Origin: Natrinema versiforme | GTDB taxonomy: Archaea > Halobacteriota > Halobacteria > Halobacteriales > Natrialbaceae | NCBI RefSeq assembly: GCF_005576615.1 | Contig: NZ_CP040330.1 | Location: 3,224,001 to 3,288,000, forward strand | Length of the DNA: 64,000 nt | Reading direction: 5' to 3' | Part shown: piece by piece, positions 26,823 to 43,882 of the stretch | Position numbering within the stretch: the first letter of the stretch is position 1 | How the letters are laid out: each line of letters opens with the position of its first letter | The notes under the pieces: model-generated | The model's input: the letters and a program-made list of their open reading frames with translations, nothing else | The model's database searches: none | Told to the model about the DNA's origin: nothing | Translations under genes and position numbers: made by a program

Positions 26823-28085
26823 ATGAGCTACGACAAGATCGAGGTCCCCGACGAGGGGGAGCAGATCACGCTGAAAGCGGGTACCGAGAACGAACTCGAG
26901 GTGCCTGACAACCCGATTATTCCGATTATTTACGGCGACGGCGTCGGGAGCGATGTCGGTCCCGCCGCACAGACGGTTCTGGAGGCTGCCGCGGAGGCGA
27001 CCGGCCGCGACATCAACTGGATGCGAGTCTACGCCGGCGAGTCCGCACGGGAGAAGTACGACGAGAACCTGCCCGAGGAGACCGTCGAGGCGATCAAGGA
27101 ACACCGCGTCGCGATCAAGGGTCCGCTGACGACCCCCGTCGGTGCCGGTTTCCGATCGCTGAACGTCGCGCTGCGAAAGAAGCTCGACCTCTACGCGAAC
27201 GTCCGACCGACCTACCACCTCGACGGCGTCCCGTCGCCGGTCAAAAACCCCGGCGAGATGGACATGGTCACCTTCCGAGAGAACACGGAAGATGTCTACG
27301 CCGGCATCGAGTGGGAGGAAGGCACCGACGACGTCCAGCAGGTCAAGGAGTTCGTCGAAGACGAGATGGGCGACGACGACGTCATCCACGACGGCCCCGT
27401 CGGCATCGGCGTCAAGCCGATCACGGAGTTCGGAACGAAGCGACTCGTCCGCCGCGCCATCGACTACGCTCTCGAGCACGACCGCGATTCCGTCACGCTG
27501 GTCCACAAGGGGAACATCATGAAGTTCACCGAAGGCCAGTTCCGCGACTGGGGCTACGAGGTCGCCGAAGAGGAGTACGGCGACGAAGTCATCACCGAGG
27601 ACACCCTCTGGGAGGAGAAAGACGGCGAAGCCGACGAGGACACCCTCGTCGTCAACGACCGCATCGCCGACAACATGCTCCAGCAGCTGCTGACCCGAAC
27701 GGACAACTACGACGTCATTGCGACGATGAACCTCAACGGTGACTACATGTCCGACGCCGCCGGCGCACAGATCGGCGGCCTCGGCATCGCCCCCGGTTCG
27801 AACTTCGGCGACGGCCTCCTGCTGGCCGAGCCCGTCCACGGCTCCGCACCCAAGTACGAGGGCCAGGACAAGGTCAACCCGACCGCGATGATCCTCTCGG
27901 GCCGCATGATGCTCGATTACCTCGGCTGGGACGACGCCGCCGACCTCGTCCGCGACGCCGTCGAGGAGACCATCTCCTCCGGCAAGGTTACCTACGACCT
28001 CGAGCGCAACCTCGAGGACGCCGAGAAGCTCTCGACGAGCGAGTACGCCGAGGAAGTCGTCAACAATATCGAGAAACTCTCGTAG
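26823..28085 (+). CDS. icd: Isocitrate dehydrogenase (NADP type)
   Basis: 420 residues, the usual length. It oxidises isocitrate to 2-oxoglutarate in the citric acid cycle. IIYGDGVGSDVG near the start, the substrate loop RSLNVALRKKLDLYANVRP, the catalytic TFRENTEDVYAG and the cofactor region HGSAPKYEGQDKVNP are all present. The Lys and Tyr pattern in the cofactor region suggests NADP. The stop codon sits in the loop of a perfect 10-bp hairpin that begins the array at 28062. Confidence 0.97.
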   Translation: MSYDKIEVPDEGEQITLKAGTENELEVPDNPIIPIIYGDGVGSDVGPAAQTVLEAAAEATGRDINWMRVYAGESAREKYDENLPEETVEAIKEHRVAIKGPLTTPVGAGFRSLNVALRKKLDLYANVRPTYHLDGVPSPVKNPGEMDMVTFRENTEDVYAGIEWEEGTDDVQQVKEFVEDEMGDDDVIHDGPVGIGVKPITEFGTKRLVRRAIDYALEHDRDSVTLVHKGNIMKFTEGQFRDWGYEVAEEEYGDEVITEDTLWEEKDGEADEDTLVVNDRIADNMLQQLLTRTDNYDVIATMNLNGDYMSDAAGAQIGGLGIAPGSNFGDGLLLAEPVHGSAPKYEGQDKVNPTAMILSGRMMLDYLGWDDAADLVRDAVEETISSGKVTYDLERNLEDAEKLSTSEYAEEVVNNIEKLS

Positions 28086-28209
28086 AGAGTTTCTCGTCCT
28101 CTCGCGGCTGCGCCGCGAGAACATCGAAAAACTGTCGGAAGCCAGTTTTTCGGGCAGTCAGACCGCGAAGCGGTCTGACAACATCGAAAACCTCCGTAGA
28201 GCGGTTCTC
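28062..28209. repeat. Three-unit hairpin array growing from the icd stop
   Basis: ATCGAGAAACTC, ATCGAAAAACTG and ATCGAAAACCTC recur with ATC at 28068, 28123 and 28183. Unit 1 has a 10-bp stem (28071-28080/28086-28095, loop CGTAG containing the stop) and a 9-bp stem (28100-28108/28112-28120). Unit 2 has a 9-bp stem (28126-28134/28143-28151) and a 10-bp stem (28157-28166/28170-28179). Unit 3 keeps an imperfect stem (28186-28209). Stem sequences differ between units yet remain complementary. It lies between convergent genes and may serve as terminators; the remaining bases to 28307 are empty. Confidence 0.75.
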
Positions 28210-32539: not shown

Positions 32540-32932
32540 TCACTCAGTCTGCCAACTCGGGTTCTCCCGCGGCGGGCTGAAGATGTCGACGCCCCGGACC
32601 GTCTCGTCGCCGCGGTTCTCGGCCGCGTGGGGCTGGTCGCCCGGGATCGCGTAGGAATCGCCGGGACCGCAGACGATCTCCTCACCGTCATCGGAAGTCG
32701 AAGAGTTCCGATTGCTCGATGAGCTTCGCTCATCGCTGTCAGTGAGGAACGTCAGTTCACCCTGCGTGATGTAGCCGGTCTGGTCGTGGGGGTGGCTGTG
32801 CTCGTCGACCGTCGCGCCGGGTTCGATCTCGAAGTGCTGGACGTTCATCGACTCGGTCCCCGCCAGCAGCGCGAGGTGGACGCCGTCCGCGGCTTCCGAC
32901 GACTCGAGGTCATCGAGGGAAACGCGTTCCAT
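32540..32932 (-). CDS. Cupin-domain protein with hairpin-encoded insert
   Basis: 130 residues. One cupin barrel: motif 1 is EHSHPHDQTGYITQGE (two His, one Glu) and motif 2 is PGDSYAIPGDQPHAAEN. These would hold a single metal ion. Between strands, after GELTFLT, an unusual serine/acid-rich segment, DSDERSSSSNRNSSTSDDGE, is inserted before EIVCGPGD. Its DNA is palindromic (see 32692-32745). The enzyme or sensor role is unknown. Confidence 0.85.
   Translation of the reverse strand: MERVSLDDLESSEAADGVHLALLAGTESMNVQHFEIEPGATVDEHSHPHDQTGYITQGELTFLTDSDERSSSSNRNSSTSDDGEEIVCGPGDSYAIPGDQPHAAENRGDETVRGVDIFSPPRENPSWQTE
32692..32745. repeat. In-frame hairpin insert in the cupin gene
   Basis: CGATGAGC (32717-32724) and GCTCATCG (32728-32735) form a perfect 8-bp stem around TTC. 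A second stem, CGGAA/TTCCG (32692-32696/32706-32710), lies beside it. The segment encodes the Ser/Asp/Arg-rich stretch inside the cupin barrel without breaking the frame. Confidence 0.6.
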
Positions 32933-33048
32933 ACCCAGCCTCACGGCGACAGACACTATAGTTCCGTGGATAGCGGCGCTGGCAGGCTGTGCAGCCGTGG
33001 GGATCGGCAAAGTTCGTCTCAGCACTCGAGTCTCGAGCCCTTCGAAAC

Positions 33049-33062
33049 AAATATTAATTTTT
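33049..33062 (+). promoter_or_regulatory. AT-rich promoter of the SMR transporter
   Basis: AAATATTAATTTTT ends 17 nt before ATG 33080, with the TATA core about 25-30 nt upstream, which supports a leaderless start. Confidence 0.5.
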
Positions 33063-43046: not shown

Positions 43047-43769
43047 GTGCAATCGCTCGACGCCGAACTCGAGGACGCCCGCCGACTCGCCATCGATGAC
43101 CTCGCGGACGCGATCGAGTCGATCGGCTTCGAGTGTACCCGCTGTGGGGCCTGTTGCAAAAGTGAGGCCGAGGACGACCACACGGCGACGGTGTTTCCGG
43201 ACGAAGTTCGAAATCTCGAGGAGAGCGCGGCGCGTAGCGCCGCGGATGATCAAGCGGTGGAGCCGCGAGATAGCGACAGCTACGACGGCGACTACGACTG
43301 GCGCGATGTCGCTCGTCCCATGCCCTACGGGCTCTCGGAGACGGAAGAGGGTGGCCTCGAGGGCGAGACCTTCGAGTGGGCCCTACAGACCGACGACTGC
43401 GGCGACTGTACCTTCTACGAGGAAGACGAGTCGGGCACGGGTGCGTGTTCCGTACACGGCGACCGGCCGCTAATCTGTCAGACCTATCCGTTCAGCGTGG
43501 CGCTTTCGGGCACCAGCCAGCCGATGGGCGAGGCCGTCGACGAGGCGGGCGTGGTCCGCGCCCACGAGTGCGAGGGACTCGGCCGGGATATTTCGCGCGA
43601 CGACGCCGAGGAACTGGCTCGAGCGCTGAAAGAACGGGCCGTCCGGGAACTCGAGGAGGCCATCGCGGTCAGGGACGAGTACGAACCGGCCAGTCCGGAC
43701 CCCGGCGAGGTCGTCGTCCACGACTCCGAAGGCGCAAAGCGGGCGGACGGAACGCCGCTCGAGGAGTGA
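43047..43769 (+). CDS. YkgJ-family Fe/Zn cysteine-cluster protein with hairpin insert
   Basis: 240 residues from GTG 43047. Cysteines: ECTRCGACC (about 30-38), then DDCGDCTFYEED, then CSVHGDRPLICQTYPF. This is the four-group pattern of YkgJ proteins, thought to hold a metal cluster. Between VRNLEES and the conserved DWRDVARPMPYGL lies an odd segment, AARSAADDQAVEPRDSDS, whose DNA is palindromic (43221-43265). Its role is unknown; it may be co-transcribed with the MBL enzyme. Confidence 0.85.
   Translation: MQSLDAELEDARRLAIDDLADAIESIGFECTRCGACCKSEAEDDHTATVFPDEVRNLEESAARSAADDQAVEPRDSDSYDGDYDWRDVARPMPYGLSETEEGGLEGETFEWALQTDDCGDCTFYEEDESGTGACSVHGDRPLICQTYPFSVALSGTSQPMGEAVDEAGVVRAHECEGLGRDISRDDAEELARALKERAVRELEEAIAVRDEYEPASPDPGEVVVHDSEGAKRADGTPLEE
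43221..43265. repeat. In-frame hairpin insert in the YkgJ gene
   Basis: CGCGGCGC (43226-43233), loop GTA and GCGCCGCG (43237-43244) form a perfect 8-bp stem. GCGG...CCGC follows near 43254-43266. The frame is intact and codes for the alanine/acid-rich segment between conserved parts of the protein. Confidence 0.55.
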
Positions 43770-43822: not shown

Positions 43823-43843
43823 ACGGCGCGCTCCGCGCGCCGT
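43823..43843. repeat. 9-bp hairpin, first of a cluster
   Basis: ACGGCGCGC and GCGCGCCGT pair around TCC. It stands in the gap between the convergent YkgJ and TRAM genes. Its stem is purely GC after the first base and very stable. Confidence 0.6.
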
Positions 43844-43846
43844 TTC

Positions 43847-43882
43847 ACCGAGCGCGAGCGGAGCGAGCGCTCGGTCTTTTTT
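43847..43882 (+). terminator. Hairpin plus T-run
   Basis: ACCGAGCGC (43847-43855) pairs with GCGCTCGGT (43867-43875). CTTTTTT follows directly (43876-43882). This looks like a bacterial-style terminator for the YkgJ side; archaea mainly need the T-run. Confidence 0.6.

Follow-up and report, generated by a model that had tools for sequence, protein, structure and literature searches.

The gene for a YkgJ-like protein in Natrinema versiforme contains a short hairpin read through as coding sequence, which raises the question of whether such a palindrome is a chance product of the gene or a member of a family of translated inserts. The locus was considered within a window of 64,000 nucleotides (the whole stretch of DNA analysed) and against the genome to which it belongs (G000) and those of its relatives. 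An earlier note had pointed to an 8-bp hairpin with a GTA loop coded inside this PF03692 protein, and the hairpin is present, in frame, at 43226-43244. It does interrupt ykgJ, as was claimed, but it is not the unit of insertion: the true unit is larger, 48 nt at 43224-43271, with two hairpins and a conserved sequence. The locus comprises:

43047..43769, + strand: host gene, coding for a YkgJ-like CxxCxxCC protein (putative Zn/Fe-chelating; PF03692, E 6.7e-11; 29 congeneric orthologs).
43224..43271, + strand: element, a 48-nt in-frame insert AGC...GAT reading SAARSAADDQAVEPRD (16 residues), placed by codon alignment against empty orthologs; covariance-model match 43218-43274.
43226..43244, + strand: hairpin 1, CGCGGCGC-GTA-GCGCCGCG, 8 bp with a 3-nt loop, inside the ykgJ insert and in frame.
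43254..43266, + strand: hairpin 2, GCGGT-GGA-GCCGC, 5 bp, with CGA...GAG flanks in the family consensus.

The YkgJ-like protein has 240 residues with the insert and about 224 without it. The 48-nt segment is filled only in the window genome, G024 and G028 and is missing in 26 of the 29 congeneric orthologs, which contradicts the possibility that it is ancestral in this protein; the remaining ykgJ genes of the 29 congeneric genomes encode about 224 residues or show other length changes. The empty orthologs run straight across the site as GAGGAG-AGCGAC or near variants, and the insertion is thus free of target duplication. The AlphaFold model of YkgJ has a pLDDT of 51, at which the position of the loop is unreadable. 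Among 80 haloarchaeal ykgJ orthologs, palindromic inserts occur in other species, at the same and at other positions: Natronorubrum texcoconense, Halobacterium sp. TGN-42-S1 (at two sites), Halorussus litoreus and Halobiforma haloterrestris.

Residues 167-215 of the Halobiforma haloterrestris protein (L204) form a 48-aa compound insert, an element copy whose second hairpin encloses two extra hairpins. A second, C-terminal insertion site of ykgJ (DSVALEAQREAGEAG) holds a pair of 9-bp and 6-bp hairpins of unrelated sequence in several Natrialbaceae (L027, L028, L030, L149, L157, L170 and others). Just downstream of ykgJ in the window, at 43823-43880, two strong palindromes precede a T run in a terminator-like arrangement, and at 28070-28179, beyond the end of an isocitrate/isopropylmalate dehydrogenase gene, three perfect hairpins of 9-12 bp follow one another.

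Taken on its own, the ykgJ hairpin is not beyond chance; its insertion and its homology to other copies are. Within its genes the window has 12 stems of 7 bp or more with 3-nt loops, where codon shuffles lead one to expect 8.7 (maximum 15), and counting stems of 7-10 bp with 3-nt loops, as had been proposed, yields a signal that is not separable from chance within the window. An acidic low-complexity expansion, or a chance palindrome in a high-GC genome, would fit this near-chance number and the acidic, variable character of haloarchaeal loops, but it is at odds with the homology of unlinked copies, the clean empty sites and the covariation of the hairpin arms. For the ykgJ segment this explanation is refuted, and its overall probability is negligible.

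The homology became apparent when the 201 nt around the ykgJ insert gave matches at three other places in the same genome, two of which lie in frame in unrelated genes (which we take to be those of a thioredoxin-like protein and pyrF) and encode the same peptide. A covariance model built from six sequences (R1) detects about 40 clear copies in the window genome, nearly all on the main chromosome contig, with E values down to 1e-25, which places the family far above chance frequency. A second model, built from 25 sequences (R2), returns 39 copies at E <= 1e-4 in the same genome; the family numbers about 38 copies in this Natrinema genome, with approximately 29 genic and 9 intergenic. The element consensus is approximately AGCGAGGCGC-NNN-GCGCCTCGGAN-NNN-TCGAGCGGCGANGAGCCGCGAGAN, 45-54 nt long, and the consensus peptide is S-E-A-R-S-A-S-D-x-S-S-G-D-E-P-R-D. 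R2 also finds copies in all 29 congeners (4-69 each). Of the Halobacteriales genomes, 252 of 293 carry the element, which covers 73 of 87 genera, and 124 genomes from the rest of the phylum gave no copy; the copy counts of these order- and phylum-wide scans are lower bounds. At the search sensitivity used, Halobacterium salinarum DSM 3754 and Haloferax gibbonsii have no copies. A plasmid collection of 7.3 Gb gave 7 matches, all haloarchaeal; blastn against 50,697 phage records gave no match, and neither did the consensus peptide (21-23 residues, probably too short as a query) against the PDB and in tblastn.

Strong copies are absent from the smaller contigs of the window genome (about 0.93 Mb), and some 38 lie on its 3.75-Mb chromosome contig (C2). 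Three intergenic copies, L038, L040 and L041, are contained in a longer repeat (about 170 bp between L038 and L040) with a T-rich GTGCTTTTG...CTTTTACCGAGGG end. In another genome, G105, five equal-scoring copies (L233-L237, around 1356-1640 of each) correspond to an intergenic repeat of about 270 bp, composed of serial hairpins and containing the two-hairpin module; its outer stems are very different between copies, still palindromic, and no enzyme is seen.

Two further cases in the window, a cupin gene and mscS, had been proposed alongside ykgJ. The cupin gene carries a divergent member of the family, a 51-nt insert with empty congeners:

32543-33061, - strand: cupin host gene (PF07883).
32687..32737, - strand: 51-nt insert reading SDERSSSSNRNSSTSDD; R1 E 3e-5, empty in G002 and G024.
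32717-32735, - strand: hairpin of the cupin insert, CGATGAGC-GAA-GCTCATCG, whose stem differs from that of the ykgJ copy; the insert as a whole follows the same plan.

The last codon of this insert, GAC, may represent a target duplication. The mscS gene was rejected as a member: it has no insertion, and its best hairpin is a 7-bp stem with a 4-nt loop within a conserved domain.

The insertion character of the copies was assessed at 22 loci of the window genome, whose joined flanks were searched in eight congeners with comparison of the DNA. Empty sites were found in congeners at all 22 loci (40 pairwise comparisons), and the net difference between filled and empty alleles ranges from 42 to 54 nt, every one a multiple of three. 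The majority of the sites are empty in all eight congeners, and at several the filled state is seen only in the window genome. The loci include genes presumed to be topA, trpA, an aminotransferase and acyl-CoA dehydrogenases. At topA, the 95% identical G002 sequence joins CTGACGAAG directly to GACGAG, where the window genome has 51 additional nt and no duplicated base. Target duplication is likewise absent at the aminotransferase, possible repeats of 3-6 nt occur at the cupin and acyl-CoA dehydrogenase sites, and the aligned copies have no fixed target word upstream. Together with the homologous copies elsewhere in the genome, these empty sites bear out the suggestion of a family of short palindromic inserts that would be translated.

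All 30 genic copies of the window genome, weaker ones included, lie in one orientation and one frame, and none contains an in-frame stop. The use of a single frame is not explained by stops, because a typical copy is open in the majority of its six frames; it is explained by charge. The frame in use, with a mean net charge of -2.0, is the only one of the six that is net negative, the other five ranging from +0.9 to +5.5. Haloarchaeal proteins are acidic. The same orientation and frame are found in 19 of 20 copies sampled in other genera, and all five plasmid copies in annotated genes (P-type ATPases, phosphoenolpyruvate carboxylase, a thioredoxin-family protein and cobN) are in frame 0 without stops. 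To judge from the reading frames, the element would be translated into a short acidic loop of 15-18 residues, which is probably flexible. Skipping of the hairpin by the ribosome, without translation, would follow the example of the mitochondrial byps, translational bypass elements that are hairpins of similar size in genes. A skipped segment, however, would be free in length and frame and would not need net lengths in multiples of three, the lack of stops in 30 copies or one conserved acidic frame, and this alternative is considered highly improbable.

The hairpins themselves are kept. Across 25 copies, 96.6% of the cells are paired, and changes on both sides occur in 8 of 14 pairs, a figure matched by 0 of 500 shuffles, although the copies are related and the shuffles hence give no strict probability; sliding the partner abolishes the pairing signal of the arms. 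The loops, furthermore, are inverted at three orthologous sites, with GTA/TAC in ykgJ (hairpin 1, GTA in the window genome and TAC in G028) and in the aminotransferase, and GAA/TTC in the second hairpin of trpA. Two papers describe template switching at inverted repeats as leading to arm homogenisation and spacer inversion (PMC8604942, PMC8794818). Such switching is proposed here because arm covariation and inverted loops occur together: the hairpins would form in DNA and their arms would be homogenised by template switching during replication, which would produce both features, so that the inverted orthologous loops are read as its mark.

Considering the insertion, the homology, the single orientation and frame, the kept hairpins and the order-wide spread, the copies probably belong to a haloarchaeal mobile element that is non-autonomous, has two hairpins, inserts between codons, usually without target duplication, and is translated as an acidic loop. 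It would enter by a copying step that relies on the hairpins, and any copy read in another frame or direction would be purged, since the acidic frame is the only one of its kind; the element itself would be selfish or neutral and not useful to the host gene. The failure to find a mobilising enzyme and the patchy sharing of sites between genera, both taken up below, count against this explanation, as does the variation in topA. Over nine species, synonymous differences amount to 0.052 in the topA insert and to at least 0.08 in every flanking 17-codon window, and the insert thus varies less than mere tolerance predicts; its DNA is therefore constrained, refreshed, or a later arrival than the flanks.

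The distribution of filled sites bears on the age of the insertions. Some sites hold the insert in distant genera while congeners lack it, such as trpA in Natrialba, the thioredoxin-like gene in Halorussus and the aminotransferase in another family, and from this patchy sharing part of the pattern may therefore consist of old insertions repeatedly lost or exchanged. Haloarchaea recombine across species. Extended to the whole family, this would mean inserts of ancestral haloarchaeal origin at fixed sites, now mostly undergoing exact loss or homologous exchange with little or no present transposition, a possibility of some weight in view of the same-site copies in distant genera at these and other genes and the many empty congeners. 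It would nevertheless require many parallel exact losses, given that most of the 22 sites are empty in all eight congeners; several sites are filled only in the window genome, and the identity of the flanks between G000 and G001 at their shared aminotransferase insert is not above that with empty congeners. Old insertions, loss or exchange contribute to the pattern, while as a complete account they appear less probable than not. The mobile element favoured here would spread in two ways, in part through a copy mechanism that uses the hairpins and in part because species swap alleles with and without the insert by homologous recombination.

No mobilising enzyme was found. Mobilisation by an IS200/IS605 (Y1, HUH) transposase acting on single-stranded hairpins, as for REP- or PATE-like elements, would agree with the two hairpins and the usual lack of target duplication, and Haloquadratum PATEs do have IS605-type palindromic ends and no duplications (PMC3119063). 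However, 8 of the 29 carrier genomes, G024 with its 39 copies among them, have no Y1 transposase (PF01797), the upstream target word is not fixed in the aligned copies, and the foot of their stems lacks the GTAG/CGTC tag of REPs (PMC3733652), all of which makes this route unlikely.

Among known systems, the closest comparison is with the Rickettsia palindromic elements (RPE). These are described as short palindromes that lie in frame within numerous genes of unrelated function; each family encodes its own conserved peptide, orthologous genes can lack the element, and its mover is unknown (PMC10969869). The likeness, drawn from that description, supports the comparison made in the earlier note: the palindrome is repeated at unlinked loci, sits in frame in conserved genes with empty relatives (22 of 22 sites) and encodes a conserved peptide in one preferred frame (30 of 30). 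The haloarchaeal element differs in being archaeal and order-wide, about 50 nt long against about 150 for RPE, with hairpins of 8 and 5 bp and an acidic peptide. It is best read, by this analogy, as an archaeal counterpart of the RPE.

Each of the other candidates is missing something essential. Small hairpins, dimers and occasional location in ORFs encoding 20-30 aa are shared by the REP/BIME elements, among them the intragenic GTAG/CGTC REPs (PMC3733652), but REPs are mostly extragenic and tagged, whereas the haloarchaeal copies are mostly genic, untagged and, in the eight carriers mentioned, without a Y1 (RAYT-type) transposase. The combination of terminal inverted repeats with target duplication that marks MITEs is not found, topA, the aminotransferase and ykgJ being free of duplication. 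Haloquadratum has PATEs and other small mobile repeats (PMC3119063) that are likewise haloarchaeal and palindromic, with neither transposase gene nor target duplication, but they are longer and are described as mobile elements tied to IS605-type transposons, not as translated inserts. In the mitochondrial coding palindromes of Nematomorpha (PMC6649704), inverted repeats also lie inside functional genes, but both arms encode conserved protein, whereas the haloarchaeal palindrome is an insertion.

Most known cases of selfish DNA that persists within protein-coding regions come from Rickettsia and from certain bacterial REPs, and a 2024 review regarded a similar process elsewhere as only conceivable (PMC10969869). 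In the open-access literature no description of translated palindromes in archaea was found. On balance, the findings favour a class of mobile palindromes that code for protein and extend over an order of archaea. They would be confined to the one frame that suits an acidic proteome, would stay palindromic through template switching, and would have been adding loops of 15-18 residues to core enzymes in most haloarchaeal genera. The haloarchaeal case is order-wide; it offers natural insertions in great number, close relatives in which the sites are empty, and a physical rule that is simple, one acidic frame of six. It makes the movement of such elements and the entry of new loops into core enzymes testable questions in free-living organisms, and the element may explain many of the odd inserts in haloarchaeal protein alignments.
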